The notes below the pieces were generated by a model. That model had not been told where the DNA came from and did not search any database. It saw only the letters and a list, made by a program, of their open reading frames with translations. Positions 23,527-64,000 of a DNA stretch of 64,000 bases are shown one piece after another. Source of the DNA: Sphingorhabdus sp. (GTDB lineage Bacteria; Pseudomonadota; Alphaproteobacteria; Sphingomonadales; Sphingomonadaceae); contig NZ_JAAVVZ010000007.1 of assembly GCF_023910635.1 (NCBI RefSeq), positions 62,001-126,000 on the forward strand. Reading direction: 5' to 3'. Numbering within the stretch: position 1 is the stretch's first letter; each line of letters starts with the position of its first letter. A program made the position numbers and the translations under genes.

Positions 23527-23824
23527 GGCTTCTCTCGCTGTTATCGTGGCTCATGCTTACACCACGTAAGTAATTTTTGTGTAGACACTTTACTAGCACT
23601 TAATATCAGCGAGAAAGGTTAGTTAGGGCGTTGTCTTGTGAATGTCCGCTATCAGCTACTAATCAGCTGTATGAAGTAATCTTAGGACGCCTGCGAGCCG
23701 TGGGGCCGGATAGCTCGCACGTGCTCGGATTGTTTTGAACGGTTTTTATTACCGAGTTGCCTTTTTGAACAATCTTTGGCATTGTTGTGTCGAAACAGCT
23801 TCAAAAGGTTGATTGGTGATTGAA

Positions 23825-25018
23825 ATGGGTTCAGAAGTAACGCGGATTGCAGAGCTGGCAGAGGCTGGCGAGCGGATGATCGAGCGGTTGCGCAAGAAAG
23901 CCTTTCTGCCTGAGGATCGCAAGGGGCTGGCCGTGCGTTACGGCATTGCCGAAGCGGCCCAATTACTTGGTTGCTCCACAAATCGTATCCGTATGGCCGA
24001 AGAGGATGGTCGCCTTCCCCCTGCCCCGGCCACGGAAAACGGGCGTCGACCAGGGTATTCGATCGAATATTTGCTCAATATGCGAAAGGTTCTGGGAGCT
24101 TCTCCCGCCCGCAGGGACCTTGACCCACCTGCAATCATTGCGGTTCAAAATTTCAAGGGAGGAGTAGGCAAGTCAACCGTTACCACCCATCTCGCCCATT
24201 ATCTCGCCGTGCAAGGATTTCGAATACTTGTAGTGGACTGCGACAGCCAAGCCACAACGACGACGCTTTTCGGGTTCAATCCACACTTCAACATAACCCG
24301 CGAACAGACGCTATACCCGTATCTGTCGATCGAACCGACCGAAATGGACCTGTTCTACGCGGTGCAAAAAACGCCTTGGCCTAATGTAGACATCATTCCG
24401 TCCAATCTTGAGCTTTTTGACGTCGAATATGAGCTGGCGGCCGCCGGTGCCGACGGCGGCTCGGTTCTGGCTAGCCGTTTTCGAAAGTTGAAGCAGGGGC
24501 TGCAGGATCTGGCGCAGAACTATGACATTGTATTGCTCGATCCACCCCCTGCCCTTGGAACAATAAGCTTGGCCGTTATGCAGGCAGCAAATGCCCTTTT
24601 GGTTCCTTTGGCTGCGACCACTCCTGACTTTTGTTCGACAGTACAGTTTCTTTCGATGATGGAACAGGTGACTGCACAGCTCACAAATGCCGGAATTGCC
24701 GTCGAATATGATTTTATCCGACTTATTTGCTCCAAATTTGATGCCAATGACCCTAGCCATGCCATGGTGCGCCAGATCATGGAACAGGCCTTCGGCCCTT
24801 CCCTATTGCCAATACCTATCCTCGAAAGCGCAGAAATCAGCCATGCCGCCTTGCGTATGATGACGATTTACGAGCTTGAGCGACCGATCGGAACGCCCAA
24901 AACGCACAAAAGATGCCGCACCAATCTCGATGAAGCCATGGGCCAGATAGAGGCTCTCGTCCGTCGCAGCTGGGGAATCGCGGCCCCTGCTCGTGAGGAG
25001 GATGTTGTAAATGCCTGA
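23825..25018 (+). CDS. parA: ParA-type partition ATPase with N-terminal HTH
   Basis: FKGGVGKSTVTTHLAHYLA, VVDCDSQATTT; MerR-like HTH at the N-terminus. Confidence 0.92.
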   Translation: MGSEVTRIAELAEAGERMIERLRKKAFLPEDRKGLAVRYGIAEAAQLLGCSTNRIRMAEEDGRLPPAPATENGRRPGYSIEYLLNMRKVLGASPARRDLDPPAIIAVQNFKGGVGKSTVTTHLAHYLAVQGFRILVVDCDSQATTTTLFGFNPHFNITREQTLYPYLSIEPTEMDLFYAVQKTPWPNVDIIPSNLELFDVEYELAAAGADGGSVLASRFRKLKQGLQDLAQNYDIVLLDPPPALGTISLAVMQAANALLVPLAATTPDFCSTVQFLSMMEQVTAQLTNAGIAVEYDFIRLICSKFDANDPSHAMVRQIMEQAFGPSLLPIPILESAEISHAALRMMTIYELERPIGTPKTHKRCRTNLDEAMGQIEALVRRSWGIAAPAREEDVVNA

Positions 25019-25095
25019 TGGTGTCAGAATGGTCGAAATCATAATGTTCATGATATGTTCGACGACATTTCAGGAACATGCCTTGGAGCTGAGCT

Positions 25096-26175
25096 ATGGC
25101 GCGTAAGCAAAGTGATTATCTGGCCGATATACTCGGCGATGAATACATCAGTGGATCTGAACAGGTGCCTGAGCGCCCTGACGCCTCCCCTGCCCCTTCA
25201 CCACCTGTCAACGCCTCAACTGGCTCCCAAAGAGCAGGAATGAGCCTTTTGGGACGTGAATCCGCCTTGACGCGCGTTGCATCTGGTGAGGTCAAACAGG
25301 TAACCCAACTGCTTCTTGATCCGGCTCGCGTCCGCATCTGGTCAGGCAACGCCCGCGTACAAAACCGGCTGACTGAAGACAATTGCCAAGATCTTATCGA
25401 TTCCATCCTTTCCGAAGGCGGACAAAAAGTTCCGGCGGTCGTCCGGAGGGTTTTGGCCGATCAGAATTTTGACTATGAGGTCATTGCCGGAACCCGGCGC
25501 CATTTTGCAATCAGCTGGCTCAGGAGCCACAGCTACCCCGACATGAAATTGTTGGCTCACGTTGCCGACATAGACGATGAAGCCGCCTTCCGGCTTGCCG
25601 ATATCGAGAACCGTGCGCGCAAGGACGTCTCCGACATCGAGCGGGCGCGCAACTATGCGCAGGCCATAGCAGACCATTATGGCGGCAAGCAGCGCCGGAT
25701 GGCAGAAAGGCTGCATCTGACAGAAAGCTGGCTTTCGAAAATGCTGGCCGTAGCTCGGATACCCGATGCAATTATCGATGCCTTTGCATCACCCGCGGAC
25801 ATTCAACTCAAACCGGCATATCCTTTGGCTAAGTGGATCGCGGAGGACGGTCATGCAACAGTTGCTGCAGAGCGAGCGAAAATGCTGGCAGCAGAACAAG
25901 ACAAACGTCGTACACACGGCAACCCGTCTCTGCGCGCTCCGGATGTCATCCGTCAAATCATGTATGGCCTCGACAGCGAGGCTACCCCACCCCCTGCCCT
26001 TCCGTCCATCCAAGCCGCCAACGGCCGACCCATGTTGAGCGTTGCATCGCGCAATCGGCAAGGTATCACATTACGATTGCACGCCGGATCAGGCGCAAAC
26101 CATAACGAATTGGCTGCAGCTCTCAAAACCATCCTCAATGCTCTTGAACAGGACGGGAAGGCTTTGCCGTTATGA
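25096..26175 (+). CDS. parB: ParB partition protein
   Basis: ParB/RepB domain (VIAGTRRHFAISWLR), HTH with MAERLHLTESWLSKMLAVARIP, follows parA. Confidence 0.9.
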   Translation: MARKQSDYLADILGDEYISGSEQVPERPDASPAPSPPVNASTGSQRAGMSLLGRESALTRVASGEVKQVTQLLLDPARVRIWSGNARVQNRLTEDNCQDLIDSILSEGGQKVPAVVRRVLADQNFDYEVIAGTRRHFAISWLRSHSYPDMKLLAHVADIDDEAAFRLADIENRARKDVSDIERARNYAQAIADHYGGKQRRMAERLHLTESWLSKMLAVARIPDAIIDAFASPADIQLKPAYPLAKWIAEDGHATVAAERAKMLAAEQDKRRTHGNPSLRAPDVIRQIMYGLDSEATPPPALPSIQAANGRPMLSVASRNRQGITLRLHAGSGANHNELAAALKTILNALEQDGKALPL

Positions 26176-26216
26176 TTCAAAAGCCATGCGGCCCGCCTTC
26201 GCCCGCGCCTAATTTG

Positions 26217-26240
26217 AAAACTTTCCCCGGGGAAAGTTTT
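26217..26240. promoter_or_regulatory. Perfect 24-bp palindrome upstream of repA
   Basis: AAAACTTTCCCCGGGGAAAGTTTT directly 5' of the repA start. Confidence 0.8.
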
Positions 26241-26242
26241 TC

Positions 26243-27466
26243 GTGAGCAAAGGCCAGCGACAGTCAATAAGCGAGCAGTTTGATCTGTTTCTGCCTTATC
26301 TGGCGGACTTGCCGTTGCGCGATCAGCGCGAAATGATGGAGAGGCCCTTTTTCAGTCTTGCCAAGACCAAAAGGGTCAAGCCGATTGACTATACATCTCC
26401 CGATGGAAAGCTTTGGGTCAATGTATCCCCCAATCCAACTTACGGCATGGCAACAATCTGGGATGCAGACATTTTGATATATTGTGCGTCGATGCTTGCC
26501 GATATGGCGCGACGTGGAGCCAACGATGTTCCTCGCAAGCTACACATCATGCCCTATGATTTGTTGCGCGCCATTGGCCGTCCTACAACAGGCCGCGCTT
26601 ATGAGCTCATGGGCCAAGCTTTGGATCGATTAGTTGCTACGACCGTAAAAACAAATATCCGTGCCGAAAACCGACGAGAGGCTACATTTAGCTGGTTAGA
26701 TGGCTGGACCCAACTGGTAGACGAAAAGACTGAACGCTCCAGAGGCATGACCCTTGAGTTGAGCAACTGGTTTTACGAAGGTGTCCTTATGAACGGGGGC
26801 GTGTTGGCTATCGATCGGGCCTATTTTAATTTGACCGGCGGTCGCGAACGTTGGCTTTACAAGGTCGCCCGAAAGCATGCTGGCGGGGCAGGGGGTGACG
26901 GTTTTTCCATTGCGATGCCCACGCTGTTCGAGAAGAGCGGCGCCGAGGGGCCTTATCGCCGTTTCAAGTTCGAAATAATCAAGATTGCCGAACGCAACAC
27001 CCTGCCAGGGTATAATCTGTCAATCGAAGTTTCGAAGAGCGGTACAAAAGAACCTCTGCTGCGGATGGTGCGCTGTGACAGCAAGGCAACCAACGAGGCA
27101 GGGCAGGGCGTTTCGGTTTCTCATTCTAAAAAACTTTCCCCAGGGAAAGTTTTGCAAAGCAACCCACCCGACAAGCAGCCAAAAGCTCCCAACTCGCCTC
27201 ATTCCAATGCCATCTTCGACGCCGGCGCACTTGTCCGCACAGCCGTGGCAGGCCTGGCAGATGCATCGACACGCGGATACATGACCGACGACACCCTAGC
27301 TGTGTTACGCCAAGAATGCCCCGGATGGGACCTCTACACCCTCCATGCCGACTTCGAGACATGGGTGAACGCAGATCCATCGAGGCTACCAGCTAATTGG
27401 CAGCGAGCCTTTATCGGCTATGTTCGCAAGTGGCATGAAAAGCATCGCCACCAGTTGCGCAGCTGA
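26243..27466 (+). CDS. repA: Plasmid replication initiator protein A (RPA family)
   Basis: 407 aa; RPFFSLAKTKRVKPIDY, YGMATIWDADILIYCAS, RPTTGRAYELMGQALDRL; next to parAB and iterons. Confidence 0.9.
   Translation: MSKGQRQSISEQFDLFLPYLADLPLRDQREMMERPFFSLAKTKRVKPIDYTSPDGKLWVNVSPNPTYGMATIWDADILIYCASMLADMARRGANDVPRKLHIMPYDLLRAIGRPTTGRAYELMGQALDRLVATTVKTNIRAENRREATFSWLDGWTQLVDEKTERSRGMTLELSNWFYEGVLMNGGVLAIDRAYFNLTGGRERWLYKVARKHAGGAGGDGFSIAMPTLFEKSGAEGPYRRFKFEIIKIAERNTLPGYNLSIEVSKSGTKEPLLRMVRCDSKATNEAGQGVSVSHSKKLSPGKVLQSNPPDKQPKAPNSPHSNAIFDAGALVRTAVAGLADASTRGYMTDDTLAVLRQECPGWDLYTLHADFETWVNADPSRLPANWQRAFIGYVRKWHEKHRHQLRS
27130..27153. promoter_or_regulatory. Second copy of the repA palindrome inside the repA ORF
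   Basis: AAAACTTTCCCCAGGGAAAGTTTT, one base different from the upstream copy. Confidence 0.75.
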
Positions 27467-27682
27467 GCGTATCTTCCTATTCCCGTAGAATTCCATTTTC
27501 TTCCAACAACGGCAGCAAACCACAAAGGCGTTCCTAAAGTGTCGTGCCTAGAACAAGAATGATGTATTATCTTTTGTCCTCACTCTACTTTGCCCATCAA
27601 TTGAACCTCTTTTGAATCGCACATGCGCAAACTGATTCAAAACAGGCGGGATTTGGAGAGAGTAACTTGACCCTTCGACACA

Positions 27683-27905
27683 ATGGGAACGACTATCACC
27701 GAGTGATAGACATATCGGGAACGGTTAAACGACCTTTCGGGAACAAAGGCACCGACCTATCAGGAACGGATCAACGCACTTTCGGGAACAAGCCCCGAGC
27801 CGTAACTGGCGCATTAGCTGGACTTTAAGGCATTTGCTGCGCGCTTAACCTTCTAAAATATCTTATAAACCCTCTAACCCTATAGATATTCTATTTGAAT
27901 TAAGG
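27683..27905. other. Candidate oriV: ~22-bp iterons followed by an AT-rich stretch
   Basis: Repeats of (A/T)TC(G/A)GGAAC at ~22-23 bp spacing (about 27714-27800), then AT-rich DNA to ~27905. Confidence 0.7.
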
Positions 27906-27935
27906 ACGATATCATTCCTTAAGGCTCAGTCAAAG

Positions 27936-28247
27936 TCAGACGCTGTGTTTCAAGGCGACTTGGGCTCCATTAACGAGGACATAATCAACCCCAATGCGGT
28001 TACGCGCACTTTTGCGGCGCGCAAGGTTATGGCCTACAAAACGTGAAGCATCATCGAATTGATCGAAACTAAGTATGCGACCTTGCCCGCTTGCGCCAAT
28101 CCGCCCCCAATGCAGTGCGACTATCCAATGACCGAACAGATCGCGTTGCACCTCAAGTTGATATTCGCGAGCAACATTGCGCTCCAGATTGATTGCGCGC
28201 AAATGCAGTCGGCAGGGCAGGGGGGGTTGGAATTGGGAGAGGGCCAT
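27936..28247 (-). CDS. WGR-domain protein
   Basis: LHLRAINLERNVAREYQLEVQRDLFGHWIVALHWGRIGASGQ. Confidence 0.8.
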   Translation of the reverse strand: MALSQFQPPLPCRLHLRAINLERNVAREYQLEVQRDLFGHWIVALHWGRIGASGQGRILSFDQFDDASRFVGHNLARRKSARNRIGVDYVLVNGAQVALKHSV

Positions 28248-28719
28248 TTGCTAATATTAGCGCTGGGCACGGACCAAGTCTTATGGATATTTTGAATCTA
28301 TCAACCATATTTGATTCAGCGAGTCGAACTACTCACTAGGCGACTTCCTTTTGGGCTTGCCGACAGGCTCAACATTTCACTCACACGCATATAAAATTAA
28401 ATACTCAAACATCAATGTTATCAGATACTTGACTGCGTATCTACGTCGGTAACGTTACAAACACTTAATATACGTAATAAAACAGCACCACGTGGCTGCC
28501 TTGGGCTCAAGCCAGCCTAGCCAAGCCATATCCGGCGCTACCTGCAGCGTAAAAGGGCTATCAGATGGGGTAAGACGGATAACCCATATAAGCCTTAATC
28601 GCGCAGATCACCCCCATCCTATTAAGATTTTCAGCGCCTAACAGCGCATTTCCTCTCGCACCAAAAGGGAAGGGGGAGAGGAGATTGGGAGAATTTCGTA
28701 GCATCGAAAGGGTCCCATT

Positions 28720-31700
28720 ATGTCAATCACTACAACAGTCCAGTCATCTGAAAAAGCTGCACGCATTCATGCTGCGGCCAAACAGATCATCCAACTATTT
28801 CCCGGCACGATCAGCCGCGCCAATCTCGACGCAGCAATGTACAACGCTTTTGGTTCGACCAGCGCGCAAGGAGAATGGAGCCAGCGTGAATCCTTCGAAA
28901 TGCTCGAACATGCCCTGACATTGTTTCTTATAGCTCAGCCCGATTGCTCCGATGAACAAATCCATTCGATTGTCTCGTCACTTCCCACCCACACGGTACG
29001 CAGCGAAACGCAGATAGACTATCAGCAATTCTCAACACCAGCCCCGCTTGCCCGTTTGATGCAATTAGCCGCTGCTATCACCAACGAAGATATCATACTT
29101 GAACCTAGTGCTGGCACAGGCCTGTTGCTTGCACAAATTGCTGGCAAAGGCGCAACACTTGCTATCAATGAATTTGAAACGCTGCGCGCCGAATTACTTA
29201 AACTTGCATATCCACAGTTCAACGTCACAACATTCGATGGCCAATACATCAACGCAATGTGCAAAATACGCCCAAGCGTCATCTTGATGAACCCGCCATT
29301 CAGCAGAAATGGCGACAAACATCACGACCCGCTCACTGCAGGCCGCCACATCGATGCCGCGCTAAACACACTCCTGCCAGGGGGCCGACTGGTCGCTATC
29401 ATGCCGCCATATTTTCATGAATTTGGTCGCACTGATGTGTACACGCGGATTACCAAAACCTACACGGTACAAGCCAACTGCCCAATTGAAGACGGGTTTT
29501 CCAAACAAGGAACGGACACCGCCACCCGGCTTGTCGTCATCGACAAGATAGCCACCGAGCAAACAGCAGCTTGTATTTCAAATCTGGCAGACATCCCATC
29601 CAAACTGCCCGCACGCACAGCAATCGATGCCGCAAAACCAAAGCCTCAAAGGCTATTTTCAGCATTCAAAACAGCAGCCAAAATTACACCGGCACCAATG
29701 AAGCACACCGCCAGCATAGAGGTTGGCGCCATTACCTATTCAAAGCTGACAGAGCCAAACTACTCAGCGGACCAAGCCGGAATTTATCTCAACTACCAGC
29801 CAACGCGGATAGCAATCGACAGGGCAGGGCGGCATCCGACACAATTGGTTGAATCGATAGCAATGGGATCAATTGCTGCACCAATCCCAAACTATGTCCC
29901 ACAGTTGCCCGAACAAATCGTCACCAAGCGCGTTTTAAGCGCTGCTCAGCTCGAAACGCTCATTTATGCAGGTGAAGCCCACAATCACTTCCTACCGGGC
30001 TCCTACACGCTCTCGGACGACAAGGCTAACCTGATATCAAGTCCACACGGCGAGACATATCGTCAAGGATATTTCATCGGCGATGGAACAGGCGCAGGCA
30101 AGGGCAGGGAAGTTGCCGCTATCATCATGGACCAATGGGTCCGCGGCAGCCGCAAACATATCTGGATCAGCGAGAACAACACTTTGCTCGAAGACGCACA
30201 GCGCGATTGGACAGCACTTGGCGGTTTAACACCCGACATTCAGCCTCTCGCCAACTGGAAGCCGCACGAAGTCATTCAAATGCGCCAAGGCATATTATTT
30301 TTGTCTTACCCAGGCCTGCGCTCCAAAACGGGAGAACGACCCCGCCTCGAACAAATACTCGAATTTGCCGGACCGGATTTCGATGGGGTTCTTATCTTCG
30401 ATGAATCTCACGCCATGGGCAATGCTGCCGGCAAGAAAAACGAATTTCGCGAACAGTCCGCCTCACAGCAAGGCATTGCAGGCGTTCGGCTACAGAACCA
30501 GCTTCCAAAGGCACGCATAGTCTATTCGTCGGCCACAGGCGCATCAAATATCGAAAATCTCAGCTATACGCTTCGACTGGGCCTATGGGGCGAGGGGACG
30601 GCATTTGGTAACCGCGAACAATTCATCAACGAAATATCAACAGGCGGGATTGCTGCCCTTGAACTGATTGCGCGCGAACTCAAAGGACTTGGCCTTTATT
30701 GCGCCAGGTCACTTAGCTACGCCGGGGTCGAATATGATATTCTCGAACAAAATCTCACGCCCGAACAAATAACCAACTTCAATATCTATGCCGACGCTTG
30801 GGCAATCATTCACCAAAACCTGAAAATTGCGCTTGAAGCAGCCAATATTATTGATCCATCTAACGGCCAAACCCTTAACGGACAGGCGCTTGGCTCGGCG
30901 CGGTCGCGGTTTGAAAGCACAAAACAACGGTTTTTTGCAGCTTTGCTGCTGTCAATGAAATTACCAGCGTTAATTCCTGCCATACAGTCCGCACTCGATG
31001 ATGAGATGAGCTGCGTCATCCAACTGGTTACCACCGCCGAAGCAACGCTTGATCGCAGGCTTGCAGCCCTCTCAGACGAAGATCGGGCTGATCTGATGAT
31101 CGACTTATCGCCGCTTGAGCATATGATGGACTATCTCCAAAACGCCTTTCCAGTGCGCCAAATGATTGTTCGGCGCGATGAAACGGGTGATAAATATTCC
31201 GAACCGATGTCCGATGCAGACGGAAATCCGGTTTTCAATCCAGAAGCCCTCGACTTACGTGACCGTTGTATCGAAAATCTGTGCGCAATGCCGCCCATCG
31301 CAACCGCGCTCGACGCTCTCATCAACCATTTTGGATCCGAACATGTCGCGGAAATAACAGGGCGCACGCGCCGGCTCATCACACTCGAAAATGGCGAACA
31401 GAAGCTGGAAACACGCTCGGCGCGTACAAATATCGTCGAAACCGACCACTTCATGCAAGGCCGCAAGCGCATATTGGCATTTTCTGACGCTGGCGGCACT
31501 GGGCGGTCTTATCATGCCAGCCTCACACATCCCAATCAACAGCGCCGCGTCCACTTCCTGCTCGAGCCAGGCTGGCGCGCTGACAAGGCAATCCAAGGAC
31601 TCGGGCGAACAAACCGAACAAATCAGGCATCCGCCCCGATATTTCGTCCGGTCACGACCGATTGTCGCGGAGAACGGCGCTTCATTTCGACCATTGCACG

Positions 31701-32892
31701 GCGGCTCGATTCACTTGGTGCCATCACGCGCGGACAGAGACAAGCCGGAGGACAAAACATGTTCAATCCAGCTGACAATCTTGAGAGCGATTTTGCCAAA
31801 GAGGCCCTCAAAAAATGGTATAATCTTCTGTTCAACGGCAAATTGCAAAGCATCACACTCAATCAATTTGAAGATATCAGCGGCCTAAAACTAACCGACG
31901 AAGGTGCACTGAAGGACGAATTACCGCCAATCCAGCGCTTCTTAAACCGCCTTTTGGCTATGCGCATTGAATTGCAAAATACGATTTTCGATGAATTCAT
32001 GGGTCTGATCGAATCCCGGATCGAAGAAGCTCGCAAAGCGGGCACGCTCGACCTTGGCGTCGAAACGATCCGCGCCGACCGCCTCGAAATTATCGAAGAT
32101 ACGCTGCTGCGCACCGACCCAAAAACAGGTGCCACCTCAAATCTTCTCTCGATTTCTGCCGAATGGAAAAGTGAGTTTATCCCGCTCGAAGACGCCGAAA
32201 ACTACATTGCTAAGCATCCTAGTGTAAGAATCTTACAAAATGACAGATCAAAACGCGTTGCAATTTTGCGTCCGAGCCACATTTTCACAACCGATGATGG
32301 CGCAAGTCACCGTTACTACCGGCTCGTTACCCCTGGCGGGGACGAACGCATCAGCGATCAAACCCTTGCTGAAAGCTACTGGCGTGATACCCCTATCGGG
32401 GCATTCCGCGAAGGTTGGAAAGCGCAGGCTGCCGAGCTTGCAAACACAGTTAACCGCGACATAATCTATGTCGCGACCGGCCAGATTCTGCCAATCTGGA
32501 ACCATCTTGATAAAAACCACGTCACCGTTCGGCGTATCGTAACCGCAGACGGAAGATCAATCTTAGGCCGCGTTGTACCAAAGCATTCGCTTGATGCCCT
32601 CTACACCGCAACCGGCGTGGATAAAGCAGCCAAGCTCACGCCTGCCGAAATCGCAAAGCATGTCATGGATGGCAACAGATACACGCTGCCGATCGCGATC
32701 AAACTTCAGCTCAAACGCAGCCGCGTCAACACCGAATTCCGACTTGAAATCCTAGAATTACCGCCAGCGCGGCTCGAAGAATTCAAGGCAATGGGCTGTT
32801 TCACAGAGATCATCCAGTGGAACACCCGGCTTTTCATTCCCAAAAGCCGCGAGATCGAAATTCTCACGCACATACTCTCCCGCACATTTTGA
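28720..32892 (+). CDS. DarB-like/strawberry-notch-type bifunctional DNA methyltransferase-helicase
   Basis: 1390 aa; NPPF MTase motif (ILMNPPFSRNG), EPSAGTGLLL SAM motif, GTGAGKGREVA, VLIFDESHAMGNAAG, GLGRTNRTNQ helicase C motif. Confidence 0.85.
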   Translation: MSITTTVQSSEKAARIHAAAKQIIQLFPGTISRANLDAAMYNAFGSTSAQGEWSQRESFEMLEHALTLFLIAQPDCSDEQIHSIVSSLPTHTVRSETQIDYQQFSTPAPLARLMQLAAAITNEDIILEPSAGTGLLLAQIAGKGATLAINEFETLRAELLKLAYPQFNVTTFDGQYINAMCKIRPSVILMNPPFSRNGDKHHDPLTAGRHIDAALNTLLPGGRLVAIMPPYFHEFGRTDVYTRITKTYTVQANCPIEDGFSKQGTDTATRLVVIDKIATEQTAACISNLADIPSKLPARTAIDAAKPKPQRLFSAFKTAAKITPAPMKHTASIEVGAITYSKLTEPNYSADQAGIYLNYQPTRIAIDRAGRHPTQLVESIAMGSIAAPIPNYVPQLPEQIVTKRVLSAAQLETLIYAGEAHNHFLPGSYTLSDDKANLISSPHGETYRQGYFIGDGTGAGKGREVAAIIMDQWVRGSRKHIWISENNTLLEDAQRDWTALGGLTPDIQPLANWKPHEVIQMRQGILFLSYPGLRSKTGERPRLEQILEFAGPDFDGVLIFDESHAMGNAAGKKNEFREQSASQQGIAGVRLQNQLPKARIVYSSATGASNIENLSYTLRLGLWGEGTAFGNREQFINEISTGGIAALELIARELKGLGLYCARSLSYAGVEYDILEQNLTPEQITNFNIYADAWAIIHQNLKIALEAANIIDPSNGQTLNGQALGSARSRFESTKQRFFAALLLSMKLPALIPAIQSALDDEMSCVIQLVTTAEATLDRRLAALSDEDRADLMIDLSPLEHMMDYLQNAFPVRQMIVRRDETGDKYSEPMSDADGNPVFNPEALDLRDRCIENLCAMPPIATALDALINHFGSEHVAEITGRTRRLITLENGEQKLETRSARTNIVETDHFMQGRKRILAFSDAGGTGRSYHASLTHPNQQRRVHFLLEPGWRADKAIQGLGRTNRTNQASAPIFRPVTTDCRGERRFISTIARRLDSLGAITRGQRQAGGQNMFNPADNLESDFAKEALKKWYNLLFNGKLQSITLNQFEDISGLKLTDEGALKDELPPIQRFLNRLLAMRIELQNTIFDEFMGLIESRIEEARKAGTLDLGVETIRADRLEIIEDTLLRTDPKTGATSNLLSISAEWKSEFIPLEDAENYIAKHPSVRILQNDRSKRVAILRPSHIFTTDDGASHRYYRLVTPGGDERISDQTLAESYWRDTPIGAFREGWKAQAAELANTVNRDIIYVATGQILPIWNHLDKNHVTVRRIVTADGRSILGRVVPKHSLDALYTATGVDKAAKLTPAEIAKHVMDGNRYTLPIAIKLQLKRSRVNTEFRLEILELPPARLEEFKAMGCFTEIIQWNTRLFIPKSREIEILTHILSRTF

Positions 32893-33008
32893 AAATTCAT
32901 CGGCGCGTGCGCCGATCCCCCAATAAAATCTGAAAAGAGGGAAGGGGGAAGAGGAGAATTGCGTCCGGAAAAGGTTCGGGAGCATCATCTATACCAAGGA
33001 ATACACCC

Positions 33009-35339: not shown

Positions 35340-35499
35340 GATCAAAGCCGCAAACCCACCAACCTCAATAATTCCACCGGCCATCACAGATTGCCCGAAA
35401 AACACAACGCAGCAGCGCCTTCGGCCCAATTCACTGCGCCTGACAAAAGGGGAGCGGGGAAGGGGTGTTGACGCTTTTTTTCGCCAAAGGAGAAATAAC

Positions 35500-49647: not shown

Positions 49648-50940
49648 TTACGCCGGCAAAGTGTATGCAAGTTCGCTGACTTTACGAAACGCGGCCGCGA
49701 TATCGTGCATCAGCTTTGGATTTTTGCGGGTGTAAGGCTCTATTACAAGCGTTTTGCTACTGTAAACCATACTTCCCCGGAAATCGCTGTCCTTGTATCG
49801 ACGCAGCCCTCCACCAAACTTGCTGCTATCAAAATGGCCGAAGGTCGCAACATGGTCGTGCGCTTTTCCCTGAAAGATCGGCTCACAATGCAATGGGCGC
49901 GTTTCCGATCGCTCAATTTCGACGCCCTCTGCCCTCAAGGCCGCTACATAAGTGTCGATATCCACCGTAGGCAGCGAAGCCTGATCGAACAACGGCTTAT
50001 AACTGTACCACACGCAGCGATCGGCATAGTCTGGCACCTGTGGCGCGATCACGCCAGGGATTCCAGCGAGTAAGCTTGAGAGGAGTTCAAAATTGCTCCG
50101 GCGCCCATCGATATACTCCTCCAGACGCACAAATTGGTTATGCGCAAGCCTGGCTGCAAGAGGATGCATGCGATAGTTCAGGCCCAGACCAGTTCCGCCA
50201 AAATCTTTCAGTTCCGACGACGTAACATCTTGAAATGATCGAACCTTGAAATGACCAAACAGTACCGCGCGTTCAAACAGATTCCGATCATTGCAGGTCA
50301 GCATCCCTCCCTGACCAGCCGCTACCAGTTTTTTGCCTTGCAGGCTGAAGGCTCCAATATCTCCGATTGTACCAACCCGCTGCCCATCCACTTCTGCCCC
50401 ATGCGCATGCGAACAATCTTCCACCACCGCGATGCCATGCTTGCGGGCAATTTGCATGATACGCCTCATATCGCATGGAATACCCCACATGTGAGTGAGC
50501 ACGATCGCGCGGGTGCGAGGGCCGATATGGCGTTCAATATCGTCGGGATCCATGTTCCCCGTAACCGGATCCGAATCAACCAGGACTGGAACCAGATTGA
50601 GGGCAAACAGCGGCATGACCGTCGCCAAGAAGGTATAGGTTGGCGCCAAAACCTCATCACCGGGCGAAAGATTCAATGCGAAAAAAGCCGAATGAAGCGC
50701 TGCGGTGCCGGAACTGGTAGCGAGCGCATAGCGACACGGCAAATAGTCTCGAAACTGGTCTTCAAGATCCTTCGCATAGCCTTCGCGACCATAATAAGAA
50801 AGTTCACCGCGCAGAACCATATCGGCGACATCCTGCGCGTCGGCGGAGGTCATTGGCGGCCACTTCTCCGCGAATTTCTCGGTAATGGTTGGAGCGCCAC
50901 CATAGAGGGCAAGCCGCGTTCTGTCTTCAATCAACGTCAT
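49648..50940 (-). CDS. DegT/DnrJ/EryC1/StrS-family PLP aminotransferase
   Basis: YALATSSGTAALHSAFFAL, VVEDCSHAHGAEVDGQRVGTIGDIGAFSLQGKKLVAAGQGG. Confidence 0.92.
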   Translation of the reverse strand: MTLIEDRTRLALYGGAPTITEKFAEKWPPMTSADAQDVADMVLRGELSYYGREGYAKDLEDQFRDYLPCRYALATSSGTAALHSAFFALNLSPGDEVLAPTYTFLATVMPLFALNLVPVLVDSDPVTGNMDPDDIERHIGPRTRAIVLTHMWGIPCDMRRIMQIARKHGIAVVEDCSHAHGAEVDGQRVGTIGDIGAFSLQGKKLVAAGQGGMLTCNDRNLFERAVLFGHFKVRSFQDVTSSELKDFGGTGLGLNYRMHPLAARLAHNQFVRLEEYIDGRRSNFELLSSLLAGIPGVIAPQVPDYADRCVWYSYKPLFDQASLPTVDIDTYVAALRAEGVEIERSETRPLHCEPIFQGKAHDHVATFGHFDSSKFGGGLRRYKDSDFRGSMVYSSKTLVIEPYTRKNPKLMHDIAAAFRKVSELAYTLPA

Positions 50941-54758: not shown

Positions 54759-54864
54759 AAGGAAAGGGGGAGGGCCAAAAGCCTTCCCCCAATCCAGTTT
54801 CGGCAAAAGCAGTCTAACCCTGCAAAGGCCGCGATAGTCGCCAATCAGACGAAGGATTAGAACG

Positions 54865-55913: not shown

Positions 55914-56167
55914 ATGGTAACGACTGTTGACATTGCTCGACAAATTGTCATCGGAAGAATTGAGCGCGCCGCATTTGGAAATGTTGGAAAATTTCGGGAT
56001 TTAGGGCAGGGGCTGGCCGAGATAAAAATAATTATGGCCCAGGTTATCGACTGTATTTTGTGCGCCGCGCAGATGAACTCATCATTCTGTTATGTGGCGG
56101 CGACAAGTCGTCGCAAAATAGAGATATTACGCTCGCGCAGAGACTGGCGAAGGAGATAAATTTATGA
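55914..56167 (+). pseudogene. Decayed RelE/HigB-type toxin (COG3657-like)
   Basis: RIERAAFGNVGKFRDLGQGLAEIKI in one frame, NYGPGYRLYFVRRADELIILLCGGDKSSQNRDITLAQRLAKEINL* in the -1 frame. Confidence 0.82.
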
Positions 56168-58139: not shown

Positions 58140-58429
58140 GTCAAAATTCCTTGCAGTTCATGATATTAAGTCTTTGGCAGATGTAACCACGATAATGTGA
58201 TTTACCAACCGATAATATGGTATCCTTAGAACCGCCAAAAACTTTCTGTCTTACCTATCCGATCCGGGACATTGAATAGATGGAATGCATGATGTTTGCC
58301 TCAAGCCCAAGCGGGCAGGGGTTGCCCAGATAATTGGCAACTGACGCCCAGTTAAGAAACCGGAACAAGGACCAACAAGGACAGCGTTCAGGGGATATAC
58401 TCTTTGAAAAGAGTGCACACGGTATGCGC

Positions 58430-59022: not shown

Positions 59023-61375
59023 AGGGCCGCGTCCGCTCCACCCGCAAGCCTGGTCTAGCCACGGAGAAGCAAACCGTAATTCAGGAAACTTCACGAGGGG
59101 CTCGCAACTTTTAGGACACCAGTTTTCAATGTGGTGGCGAGGGGTGCGCCTACCAGTGGTGATCTGGGCGGGGTTGCTCTTGTTATTCTTCACGATCAGA
59201 ATGTCCATGACACTTGGCCAATATGAATGGCAAATGATCGGCCAAAGGCTGCTGGCAACTTTGTGGCTGTATCTTGATATTTCCGAAATGAAGCGCGTGG
59301 ATATTACGTTACGCGATGGCAGCGTATTTCAAACCTATATGGGATATGTACCGTTCATTGCCGACGTACAGACAGCTTGGGCAAAGCTTATAAACGCCTT
59401 CCTTGGATCACTCATATTTTCAACGACAATAACAGCTCTATTTGTATACTGGTATGTGCCATGGGCGCGCAAGCGCGGCGAAAGTATCCTAGCCGATCAC
59501 CATGAGCGCGGCGTCGAACTGGTTGAATATCACGCTTTGCGCAGGTTGATTGTACGCCACAACAGAAAAAAATTGCACGAGCGGGCAGAAGAAATGTTTC
59601 CCGATCACAGCGCTGCCGAAGTGGCCGATTTGCCATTTGCAACCCGAAAGCAGGCAGGGCTTGCACCACCTTACATGATAGCAACCCTGCCCTTTACATA
59701 TGGTACAGAGCAAAGCCACGTCATGGCGGTCGGCACGACAGGCTCGGGAAAAACGACGGTACTTAGATCATTGGTGGCACAAGCAATCGAACGCGGGGAT
59801 AACATTGTTCTTTTCGATCTAACTGGCCATTATGTTGAAGCTTTTTATAGGCAAGACCGCGACTATATTTTGAACCTCAATGACCAAAGATGTGAAAGCT
59901 GGTCGGTGTTTAATGACTGCGAGACACAAAGCGAATTTGTGGCAGCCGCGACTGCACTTATTCCCACAGAGTATGGGTCGGACGGCGGTTTTTGGGAACG
60001 CGCAGCACGAACGCTATTTGTTGAAATGTGCGTTAAACTAAAGTCGCTTGGGTTGACCAGTAACAAGGCCCTTTCAGATGAACTTTTGAAGGCCAGCCTC
60101 AAGCATATCTATTCCCGTTTGAGAGGAACCGTTGCCGATCCTTTGACGTCGCCGGACGCTGCAAAGATGGCGCAATCCATTCGCGCCGTCCTTAACGCGC
60201 ACGGAGATCATTTGCGGTTTTTACCGGATGGTGGTGCGCCATTCTCCATAAAGAAATGGATCAAACTCGAGGAAGAAACGCCTTCGATATTGTTCATCAC
60301 CGCGAGCTATTCCGATCTTGATATGGCAAAACCGCTGCTTACGATGTGGATGAATATTGCGATCAATACATTGATGACTTTAAAGCATACACGCGTGCTT
60401 CGTACGTGGTATATATTTGACGAATTGGCAGCGCTGCATAAGCTGCCAGCGTTGGAACGCGGTCTTCAAACCGCACGTAGTTTTGGCGGCGCCTTTGTGC
60501 TTGGTCTGCATAACTTTGCAGGGCTAAGAGTGCCCTATGGCGATGACGGAGCCTCCAACATCATCAGCCTGACCAATACAAAGTTATTCCTACGCGTAGC
60601 CCACACAGAAACGGCAGAGGAGTGTTCGCGTCTCATTGGAACACGCAAGGTGAGATTCATGGACGAAAGCTACTCCTACGGGGCCCATCAAACGCGCGAT
60701 GCTTCAACGATCAGCCCCACAACAAAGGAGGAAGCTTTGGTGATTGCTGATGACCTTACAAGCCTTCCAAACCTGACGGGTTATATTCGGTTTCCGGGAA
60801 AATTTCCGTCGGCAATGGTAACAATACCTTACGTCAACTACGAGGTGGTCGCTCAAGGATTTATTCCAAACGAACCACCACCATTGTTGCTTTTAGACAA
60901 GGACGATGGAGATGATGACAGTGGCGGGCAGGGCGAGGGTGGAGGTCCTGATATCGCAGAACTGCATCCAGAAAGCGATATGCCACCGGAAGAAGCACCT
61001 CGGGATAATGCTGTCCATTTAGGCAGTAGAAAGGACATAGACCCGAAAACCGAAAATCCTATTAAACGGGTCACATTGCCCACACCCATCAGTACCCGAA
61101 ATGCCCCGCGGCGCGGCAGATTGAGTATGCCAAAGAAGCCGGTCCAGTCGACGGAAGGCGATGTAAAACTAAATGTCAGGGAAAGTCAAAAAGGCAAACT
61201 AAACACCGTCGCGCCCTTTGCGAAACAGGGTCCTAGGCCCCGTGCCGCGCAGGTTGAGGAGAGTGTTTCAGGTAATATTGCCAAACGTGAAGTGCAGCAA
61301 GATTTCTACGACGATTCCACAAAAGCTTCGCGAATAGCAAGTCGCGACGGCGACGAATTGGATCATGATATATGA
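59012..61375 (+). CDS. traD: TraD-type IV coupling protein
   Basis: HVMAVGTTGSGKTTVLRSLVAQAIERGDNIVLFDLTGHYVEAFY; WYIFDELAALHKLPALERGLQTARSFGG. Confidence 0.93.
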   Translation: MADRGPRPLHPQAWSSHGEANRNSGNFTRGSQLLGHQFSMWWRGVRLPVVIWAGLLLLFFTIRMSMTLGQYEWQMIGQRLLATLWLYLDISEMKRVDITLRDGSVFQTYMGYVPFIADVQTAWAKLINAFLGSLIFSTTITALFVYWYVPWARKRGESILADHHERGVELVEYHALRRLIVRHNRKKLHERAEEMFPDHSAAEVADLPFATRKQAGLAPPYMIATLPFTYGTEQSHVMAVGTTGSGKTTVLRSLVAQAIERGDNIVLFDLTGHYVEAFYRQDRDYILNLNDQRCESWSVFNDCETQSEFVAAATALIPTEYGSDGGFWERAARTLFVEMCVKLKSLGLTSNKALSDELLKASLKHIYSRLRGTVADPLTSPDAAKMAQSIRAVLNAHGDHLRFLPDGGAPFSIKKWIKLEEETPSILFITASYSDLDMAKPLLTMWMNIAINTLMTLKHTRVLRTWYIFDELAALHKLPALERGLQTARSFGGAFVLGLHNFAGLRVPYGDDGASNIISLTNTKLFLRVAHTETAEECSRLIGTRKVRFMDESYSYGAHQTRDASTISPTTKEEALVIADDLTSLPNLTGYIRFPGKFPSAMVTIPYVNYEVVAQGFIPNEPPPLLLLDKDDGDDDSGGQGEGGGPDIAELHPESDMPPEEAPRDNAVHLGSRKDIDPKTENPIKRVTLPTPISTRNAPRRGRLSMPKKPVQSTEGDVKLNVRESQKGKLNTVAPFAKQGPRPRAAQVEESVSGNIAKREVQQDFYDDSTKASRIASRDGDELDHDI

Positions 61376-61587: not shown

Positions 61588-64000
61588 GTGTGTCGATTGG
61601 CGCGGTGCACTCAGCCAGCGGAGCAGCTGCATATTTTGCGGCCGACAATTATTACAGCGCTGAACAAGCCGAAGGCACATCGCAATGGGCAGGACAAGGC
61701 GCAAACGAAGCAGGGCTTGCAGGGGCTGTCGATACAGTTGTCTTTGAGAAAATTCTCAACGGTGTTCTTCCCGACGGCACGCAAGTTGGCGATCCCGAGA
61801 AACGTGACCACGGCCGTGATTTTACCTTCTCGATGCCCAAATCTTTATCGTTGTTGGCATTGGTATCAGGCGACAAGCGCATCTTGGAAGCGCATGTCGA
61901 GGCCGTGCGCGAAACGATGCAATGGGCAGAGAAGAATTTGGCAGAAGCCCGCATCAAGGTGGACGGCAAGGATGTCGCGGTCAGAACAGGTAATCTTACA
62001 TACGCGCTGTTTCAGCATGATACGAGCCGCAAAACCGATCCGCAAAGTCACATTCATGCCGTGATTGCCAATCTGACTCGGCTGCCAGAAGATTACCGAC
62101 AGGCCGATAAGATTGACCCAAACACAGGCGAGGTCACCCGCGATGATGGTTGGCGTGCTTGGCACAACGGGGCGATGTATAAAGCCAGCACGACTCTCAC
62201 ATCGATTGCTAACGCCAATTTGAGGGCGCGCGTCGAACAGCTCGGGTATAAAGCTGAATTGGTGGCTGGCGGCAAACATGGTGCGTTTGAAGTTATAGGG
62301 CCAGATGGGGAACGCATTGCAAAGACCGCGCTCGATGGATTTTCCAAACGTGGCCAGGATATCAAGGCTAAGGCGCAAGAACTTGGCGTGCACAGCCCGC
62401 AAGGCCGGCGGGAAATAACAAAACGCACCCGCGATGCCAAGATAGATGCTGGTGACCGCGACGCTCTGCAAAGCAAATGGCGCGAGGAAGCAAAAGAGCT
62501 TGGCTATAATGGCGATAGCATATTCAAGGCCGCCAGCCTTGCTTGCGAAAAAGGAACGACCGAGCGCGGCGTTATTGCTGTGGGCGCGGCCGTTCGCGAT
62601 ACTATCCAAAATATCGGTGAACATTTACGCCGCGGCGATGACCCTCTGATCGACCAAGGATTATCGCGACTAACGCGGACACCTAATGTCGTTCGCACCC
62701 AATATGCGACCGCTAGTGCGGTTCGTATATTGAGTGAGCGCGAAGCAGCGTTCAAAACATCGGATGTTATAAAAACAGCGGTCGACTTAGGGCTTAAGGG
62801 CGTCACACATGCCAGCGTTGAAAAGCGCATGGAGCAGCTCGCCGAAAAAGGTCAGCTCGTCGTCGGCCAGTCGCAGCGCCACGATCGCGCCGTTGACTTT
62901 GTAACCACAAAAGACGCCATCGAGCAGGAAAGACGCATCCTGAAGGCAATGGATACAGGCATGGGGCAAGGCAGACCATTGATGCCAGCCAATGAAGCTG
63001 CGCGCGCGCTACAGGCGCTCGCTGGCGACAAGCAGCTTAATCCCGAACAATTGGCGGCAGCCATTCAGATTGTGTCGTCCACCGACAGGATTGTGCAAAT
63101 CCAAGGCAGGGCAGGGTCAGGTAAATCGACATTGTTGCAACCCGTTGCCAAAGCAGAAGCTATTGATGCCGCAGCGCGCCTTTTGGGCCAGGATGGGCAT
63201 AAAACCTTAATTCTAACAGGTGAGGTTAAAGGCGATGCCACGGCCCTGGCGTTTCAAAACAAGATGGTCGGCGACTTAAAAGCCGATACCGGGCTTGAAG
63301 CAATGACAGTAGATAGCTTCATTTATCGCAACACAAAATTCTTGGACGGGAACGCATCACCTCAAAGCTTTGCTGCGCGTAAATCGGAACTTCAGGGCAG
63401 ATATTTGATCCTTGACGAAGGATCCATGAATTCCAACGAACAGATGGATAGGCTTACTTCGCTTGCAAATCTGATGGAGGTTGGCCGTCTTGCCATTATC
63501 AGTGATCGAAAGCAGTTAAGCGCGATTTCTGCAGGTAAACCCGCTGCGATGATGCAGGCCCGCAGCATCCAAGATTCCCTTCCGGTCTCCGAAGTGAACA
63601 TAAATATGCGGCAGACAAACCATGATATGCAACTTGTCGCCAATCTGGCTGACGCGGGCAATATAAGGGGCGCGTTGGACGTTTTGGGCGACCGTGTCAT
63701 AGAGAGCAATGACCGAACCGGCGATGCAGCGCGCGCATGGCTTAAATTAAGTCCGCAGGAGCGCGGCAAAACTATATTATTGCCTTCGGGGCGTCAGGGC
63801 AGGGCAGAAGCCAACGCGCTTATCCAGGCGGGCTTAAAAGCCGAAGGAAGCATATTTGGAGAGGGGCGCAACTTCAACGTCCGCGAAAGTGTTCAGTTGG
63901 CGCATGAAGAACTGCGTTATGCCCAAAACTGGCGCGAAGCTGAATTTTTGGAAGTTGGATCAAAATACAACTCTCTTGGGCTGCAGCCGGGAGATTACCG
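61584..64000 (+). CDS. traI: MobF-family TraI relaxase-helicase (3' end outside window)
   Basis: MSVSIGAVHSASGAAAYFAADNYY, HGRDFTFSMPKSLSLLALV, SHIHAVIANLT, IQGRAGSGKSTLLQ, YLILDEGSMNS; not in the ORF track because it runs off the end. Confidence 0.93.
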   Translation, partial: MSVSIGAVHSASGAAAYFAADNYYSAEQAEGTSQWAGQGANEAGLAGAVDTVVFEKILNGVLPDGTQVGDPEKRDHGRDFTFSMPKSLSLLALVSGDKRILEAHVEAVRETMQWAEKNLAEARIKVDGKDVAVRTGNLTYALFQHDTSRKTDPQSHIHAVIANLTRLPEDYRQADKIDPNTGEVTRDDGWRAWHNGAMYKASTTLTSIANANLRARVEQLGYKAELVAGGKHGAFEVIGPDGERIAKTALDGFSKRGQDIKAKAQELGVHSPQGRREITKRTRDAKIDAGDRDALQSKWREEAKELGYNGDSIFKAASLACEKGTTERGVIAVGAAVRDTIQNIGEHLRRGDDPLIDQGLSRLTRTPNVVRTQYATASAVRILSEREAAFKTSDVIKTAVDLGLKGVTHASVEKRMEQLAEKGQLVVGQSQRHDRAVDFVTTKDAIEQERRILKAMDTGMGQGRPLMPANEAARALQALAGDKQLNPEQLAAAIQIVSSTDRIVQIQGRAGSGKSTLLQPVAKAEAIDAAARLLGQDGHKTLILTGEVKGDATALAFQNKMVGDLKADTGLEAMTVDSFIYRNTKFLDGNASPQSFAARKSELQGRYLILDEGSMNSNEQMDRLTSLANLMEVGRLAIISDRKQLSAISAGKPAAMMQARSIQDSLPVSEVNINMRQTNHDMQLVANLADAGNIRGALDVLGDRVIESNDRTGDAARAWLKLSPQERGKTILLPSGRQGRAEANALIQAGLKAEGSIFGEGRNFNVRESVQLAHEELRYAQNWREAEFLEVGSKYNSLGLQPGDY

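Follow-up and report, generated by a model that had tools for sequence, protein, structure and literature searches.

KOPS-like octamers and a chromosome-type dif site on a Sphingorhabdus plasmid

In a 64,000-nucleotide stretch of DNA from Sphingorhabdus sp., hereafter called the window, a G-rich octamer changes strand beside a plasmid replication gene, which raises the questions of what organizes this polarity and why so many copies crowd around the gene. The window covers positions 62,001 to 126,000 of C56, a 155,458-bp contig that is probably a whole plasmid, in an assembly of 89 contigs and 3.05 Mb; by the relatives of its RepA, the contig belongs with sphingomonad-type alphaproteobacteria. 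Genes on C56 were called with a crude script and dif sites with a hand-made score.

Octamer polarity on the plasmid contig

Seventeen exact octamers are present on the two strands of the window, at the very positions given in the original prediction and nowhere else. CCCTGCCC, i.e., GGGCAGGG on the minus strand, occurs at 10–17 and 634–641 (left arm), 24019–24026, 24547–24554, 25188–25195, 25992–25999, and 59685–59692. GGGCAGGG on the plus strand occurs at 26886–26893, 27101–27108, 28215–28222, 29822–29829, 30102–30109, 56004–56011, 58313–58320, 60926–60933, 63109–63116, and 63797–63804. The predicted cluster of nine around the origin is confirmed (24019–30109). The octamer fits the FtsK-orienting KOPS consensus GGGNAGGG, as had been recognized; the full consensus adds GGGAAGGG at 24796–24803 (minus strand; CCCTTCCC on the plus strand) and, on the plus strand, at 28667–28674, 32939–32946, and 35457–35464, as well as GGGGAGGG at 54767–54774 (plus strand), giving 22 sites in the window with a switch that is just as clean. 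The empty block described after 30.1 kb indeed has no GGGCAGGG, but it holds the GGGAAGGG sites at 32939 and 35457.

All but one of these sites have the orientation that leads from the origin to dif (see below), which is called permissive here. The exception at 59685, singled out beforehand, proved to be the sole opposite GGGCAGGG on the whole of C56, where 22 copies are permissive; for GGGNAGGG, the contig-wide counts are 28 and 2. The consensus sites form blocks, with four plus-strand sites at 3.4–25.5 kb, nine minus-strand sites at 38.2–88.0 kb, and plus-strand sites from 88.9 kb onward, and with two exceptions. The best two-block split accommodates 28 of the 30 GGGNAGGG sites, a result matched by random signs in 0.035% of trials and by shuffled signs in 0.01%, and the distribution over the full plasmid is thus non-random. 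The sites diverge between window positions 25992 and 26886, and their convergence, at a distance of 93 kb, lies within C56:25.5–38.2 kb. A second inversion opposite the origin had been anticipated; the inversion exists, at dif, but it lies 60% of the way round and not exactly opposite.

The divergence falls in a partition and replication locus. On the plus strand, parA (23813–25018; ParA/SopA-type ATPase; Pfam AAA_31, 2.4e-34, and CbiA) shows synteny in relatives, and its coding strand carries three CCCTNCCC, i.e., leftward KOPS, which point away from repA and to dif. It is followed by parB (25096–26175, plus strand; SopB-type HTH; Pfam SoPB_HTH, 2.4e-25, and ParB_N, 3.1e-05), whose two leftward KOPS include the final one ahead of the switch (25992). 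The plus-strand repA (26243–27466; replication initiator protein A; Pfam RPA, 5.8e-64), whose product shares up to 72% identity with RepA proteins in PLSDB, has two rightward KOPS. The first of them and of the right arm, at repA +643, is likewise a KOPS in five PLSDB relatives (W04, W05, W11, W14, and W18). The site at 29822 lies in a Strawberry-notch-like gene (28720–32892).

Between parB and repA, inside the switch interval, a 24-bp perfect palindrome, AAAACTTTCCCCGGGGAAAGTTTT (26217–26240), is a candidate parS, with a second copy (96%) within repA at 27130–27153. In the relatives W05, W10, and W18, the matching GTTTCCCCGGGGAAAC comes after the parB stop and not at repA. A function as RepA operator is less likely, because the palindrome follows the parB stop where parB and repA are apart. 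Four iteron-like repeats, (A/T)TC(A/G)GGAAC with a spacing of 22–23 bp, at 27714–27790 on the plus strand are the likelier oriV. The predicted interval of the switch at repA therefore stands, but its location is the parB–repA junction; an exact coincidence with oriV was dropped, since the iterons are ~1.5 kb downstream.

Replication strand skew, gene orientation, or codon usage could make a G-rich octamer polar as a mere by-product of composition; skew along replichores is a general property of G-rich octamers, and it is also found in the G-rich neighbors of the motif, GGGAGGGG and GGGGCAGG. When synonymous codons were shuffled in the 91 predicted genes of C56 and the remainder was block-shuffled (400 replicates), the signal was lost: the 22 permissive GGGCAGGG compare with 3.8 ± 1.9 expected (maximum 9), and the one opposite copy is no excess over 2.2 ± 1.5. 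Moreover, parA, parB, and repA share the plus strand, but their sites do not share a direction: those in parA and parB point leftward and those in repA rightward. Because the switch lies inside these co-oriented genes, and in view of the codon null, neither gene orientation nor codon use explains the polarity. The GC skew of C56 is negative on the right arm despite its richness in plus-strand KOPS, and the skew extremes do not match the KOPS polarity. The polarity on C56, which GC skew does not follow, is organized by dif and not by replication-linked composition. With this correction, the proposed translocase signal is supported as a KOPS-like one running from origin to dif.

On C56 alone, a 66-bp tandem repeat located beyond the window accounts for most of the octamers that outrank GGGCAGGG. 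Over-representation in a maximal-order Markov model of C56 was uninformative, because the expectation derives from heptamers that are themselves driven by the octamer.

The dif site and the host machinery

A scan run after the convergence had been located found a chromosome-type dif of 28 bp, AAGATTGATAATATATCTTATGTTAAAT, at C56:26182–26209. It is inside the KOPS convergence and outside the window, about 35.8 kb to the left of window position 1. The site has a XerC arm, a 6-bp center, and a XerD arm, and its core, ATAA-N6-TTATGTTAA, has zero mismatches; the XerC arm is unlike that of the chromosomal site. Two further dif-like cores occur in the assembly. The one at C11:6089, on which 13 of 13 KOPS converge, is taken as the chromosomal dif, polarity and density on the host chromosome having been sampled on some contigs. 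At the other, C1:248295, there is no polarity switch.

The host encodes an FtsK with a gamma domain (E = 5.3e-26). According to the part of PMC2680272 consulted, E. coli FtsK reads KOPS with R1300, E1303, and E1306; the equivalents of R1300 and E1306 are kept in the host protein, and E1303 is replaced by Asp. Two tyrosine recombinases on contig C18 are the best matches of the XerD and XerC models, below the NCBIfam cut-offs, and are the XerC/XerD candidates. On C56, the PF00589 profile found no tyrosine recombinase and the PF00239 profile no intact serine recombinase, only a 53-aa resolvase relic; the contig as assembled encodes no intact dimer-resolution recombinase among these families.

Here, we propose that the octamers are very probably KOPS in a KOPS/FtsK/XerCD-dif architecture for dimer resolution, as judged from the sequence; this high confidence covers the KOPS/FtsK/dif reading and excludes the reason for the crowding at repA. 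KOPS are FtsK loading sites that set the direction of translocation, and are predicted to do so for the host FtsK. They would split the plasmid into two arms that diverge at the parB–repA junction, with parS and the origin, and converge on the plasmid dif. Where homologous recombination has joined two sister plasmids as a dimer, FtsK positioned at the septum during its closure would load on KOPS and pump the DNA to dif from both sides. FtsK would then activate host XerC/XerD, and the dimer would be resolved at dif. We infer FtsK loading and XerCD recombination on the C56 plasmid from these elements.

The same layout in related plasmids

Fifteen PLSDB relatives were taken whole, 13 with a C56-type RepA (77–257 kb) and two with other rep genes. 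A dif was scored in seven of the 13 (80–257 kb), and in all seven the KOPS layout is as on C56, which bears out the origin-to-dif arrangement in related replicons. In the eight dif plasmids including C56, rotated to repA, GGGCAGGG is permissive at 176 of 194 sites (18 opposite). Among the seven relatives without C56, the origin-to-dif bias ranks GGGCAGGG first and GGGGAGGG second of 29,443 octamers; all four N variants of GGGNAGGG are skewed in the relatives, most strongly that with C. In seven of the eight plasmids, the cumulative KOPS polarity peaks in an interval that contains dif or at about 0.2 kb or less from it, and in W17 the distance is about 2 kb; the product of seven interval fractions, which were picked post hoc, is 3e-10 for this coincidence. 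W03 (185 kb) has its dif just 16 kb away from repA, at 9% of the circle, and every one of its 22 sites agrees with the layout. As the organizer of the polarity, the replication midpoint was rejected, fitting three sites versus 15 for dif in the discordant stretches. For three plasmids, the prediction was fixed beforehand with the site positions unseen, and hand counts gave 23 of 24 sites for W13, 29 of 41 for W15, and 57 of 75 for W16; the misfits of W15 include a block at 43–58 kb.

These data also bear on readings other than KOPS. In W03 and W08, GC skew also has a turning point close to dif, so that replication-linked skew may contribute in some plasmids. However, in both octamer rankings (those of the relatives and of the genome-collection loci below), GGGCAGGG is many orders of magnitude ahead of octamers other than KOPS, and a compositional explanation is largely refuted; we give it almost no weight. 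E. coli Chi is also a G-rich, polar octamer, and a Chi-like site for RecBCD/AddAB would likewise be strand-biased along replichores. The likeness in length, G-richness, and polarity is to E. coli Chi, from which the host's own Chi may differ. Such a site is very unlikely, because the fourth base is tolerated as in KOPS (GGG[ACG]AGGG all skewed), the polarity inverts at dif even with dif at 9% of the circle, the octamers converge on the chromosomal dif, and they are few on the chromosome contig sampled near gidB. It is similarly improbable that the repA-proximal octamers are targets of a protein of the plasmid itself (for ParB spreading, for RepA, or for transfer) with a chance likeness to KOPS. 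Their density peak is centred on par-rep and plasmid-specific among the sampled contigs, but the identical motif with the same fourth-base tolerance continues through both arms as far as dif and also serves on the chromosome, and the KOPS switch is also near rep in both plasmids with other rep genes.

Relatives without a scored dif give a mixed picture. Five of the six C56-type plasmids below the dif threshold are still two-armed, W09 with a weak signal (p = 0.04), whereas W04 does not reach significance; in the five, either dif has diverged or KOPS have a role beyond dimer resolution. Among five small relatives (22–52 kb), in which an annotated recombinase family protein is present, four still have some KOPS that point outward close to repA, and the smallest, of 22 kb, contains a dif-like site. 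A simple rule of plasmid size was rejected, because these small relatives keep part of the cluster.

Crowding of KOPS around repA

Across the 14 C56-type RepA plasmids including C56, GGG[ACG]AGGG reaches 0.9–1.9 per kb within 3 kb of repA, versus 0.30 overall, and nearly all of these sites point outward. Codon-preserving shuffles of the par-rep genes again do not account for this: 24 permissive sites versus 2.6 expected in parA, 27 versus 6.8 in parB, and 23 versus 5.3 in repA, with 0, 0, and 1 opposite sites observed. A wider sample from a genome collection comprised 80 loci, reduced to 76 by removal of near-duplicates, of which 62 are Sphingomonadales-type, a grouping by titles and similarity in which three loci (L209, L214, and L229) bear other labels. 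The 62 loci have 797 outward and 64 inward KOPS, although the loci are mutually related, so that these are not counts of independent events, and some are large or second-chromosome contigs. Outward sites exceed inward ones within 6 kb of repA in 61 of the 62, with one tie, and the density falls from ~1.8 per kb at repA to ~0.3 per kb by 10 kb. GGGCAGGG ranks first of 29,125 octamers in the genome-collection loci. The outward pattern is also seen in 11 of the 14 other loci, and not in L270, L271, and L273.

The plasmid density peaks at repA and does not rise toward dif, whereas the sampled chromosome contigs do rise. On C56, it is 0.92 per kb within 6 kb of repA; the host chromosome samples are reversed, with 0.07–0.08 per kb on C12 near gidB and 0.28 per kb at dif. 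In the passages of the searched literature that were consulted, no description of an origin-centred KOPS peak was found.

We think that the crowding arises because outward sites next to the origin are correct wherever dif lies; they would hence always be favored and travel with the par-rep cassette, which can keep them when it moves. Outward KOPS by the origin may, in addition, make FtsK reverse ahead of the ParB–parS complex. We tentatively suggest, at somewhat less than even odds, that the cassette holds a divergent, origin-centred KOPS array that makes the cassette portable or else shields ParB–parS, or the replication start, from FtsK. The main rival for the cause of the crowding, within the KOPS reading, is age: the par-rep cassette may be the oldest part of the plasmid, with accessory DNA too recent to have gained KOPS. 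Age has roughly one chance in three in our judgment. Outside par-rep, the gene content is in flux, the density declines smoothly to the level reached by 10 kb, and some KOPS positions are common by inheritance, all as age would have it. However, the chromosome core is older still and yet has the far lower density of the sampled contigs, and the parB and repA sites occupy 14 and 11 distinct alignment columns, which suggests repeated gain.

The known chromosomal KOPS/FtsK/XerCD-dif system of E. coli and many other bacteria shares with C56 the consensus GGGNAGGG, the origin-to-dif polarity, a 28-bp dif-like site, and a host FtsK-gamma with XerC/D candidates. It differs in that the present case is a 155-kb plasmid contig, known here from sequence alone, with KOPS densest at the origin and not toward dif. 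In the examined sections of an Enterobacteriaceae survey (PMC11724359), xrs occurs in every replicon only above 242–250 kb, mid-size plasmids carry a recombinase, and FtsK-dependent xrs/KOPS was demonstrated experimentally on R27 (180 kb). Large plasmids such as R27 resemble C56 in their chromosome-like dif with KOPS converging on it, and the annotated recombinase family protein of the small relatives resembles the situation of the mid-size plasmids in those sections. Unlike them, the present plasmids are from Alphaproteobacteria and have the layout down to 80 kb; the same sections report no origin-centred cluster. The part of PMC13342612 consulted describes KOPS polarity that inverts at dif, as here, on large extrachromosomal replicons including those of Alphaproteobacteria, but with a replication-profile cutoff of 250 kb and no mention of sphingomonads in its main text. 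As far as these texts go, KOPS with dif on large plasmids and replicons was already known, and what is new is their presence on plasmids as small as 80 kb, within an order that the two texts leave uncovered, together with the origin-centred peak.

These results suggest that medium-size plasmids, some of them typed conjugative, are laid out for dimer resolution of the chromosome type by their host, in a size range for which resolvases encoded by the plasmid itself are considered the usual case. How a plasmid turns chromosome-like thereby becomes testable. The origin-centred peak, present at nearly every Sphingomonadales-type locus (61/62), is a strong regularity of par-rep regions that current accounts of KOPS, in the texts consulted, do not predict. 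If the proposal of a divergent array in the cassette is true, the origin array would put FtsK signals to a use specific to plasmids, unlike their dif-ward accumulation on chromosomes.

Candidate parS and a second par–rep-like locus

A palindrome around TTTCCCCGGGGAAA, parS-like in character, is found at window positions 26217–26240 and 27130–27153. In a pattern search of the 14 RepA plasmids, a match was present in 13, usually positioned near the parB stop, and W08 gave no match by the pattern used. The palindrome is a candidate for the plasmid parS. W11 (NZ_CP011772.1) harbors a second par–rep-like locus, ~106–108 kb from repA, which is accompanied by its own inverted cluster of KOPS, the octamers that orient FtsK. 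The octamer skew list of the plasmid contig C56 was dominated by a 66-bp tandem repeat, with ~23 near-exact copies outside the window (C56:47859–49345).

A dif-associated block common to C56 and C1

Sequence comparison revealed a 268-bp block, starting with dif, that is common (92%) to C56:26182–26449 (L013) and C1:248054–248320 (L014), C1 being another contig of the same assembly. The C1 copy is located at the third dif-like site, where KOPS polarity does not switch, and a partial copy was found at C1:243179–243263. The block is possibly a mobile dif module. Three genes matching the Lamassu defence proteins LmuA, LmuC, and LmuB (C1:244.5–247.9 kb; L029:4517–7886) directly adjoin this non-switching site.

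Putative resolution genes

A gene annotated as a recombinase family protein is present in all five small RepA relatives (L193, L194, L195, L197, and L198; 22–52 kb), the smallest of which, the 22-kb plasmid, also has a dif-like site. On C56, a serine resolvase relic was found at positions 50241–50357 (48/145 positions, 53-aa frame). The C56 plasmid may formerly have possessed, and since lost, a resolution system of its own.
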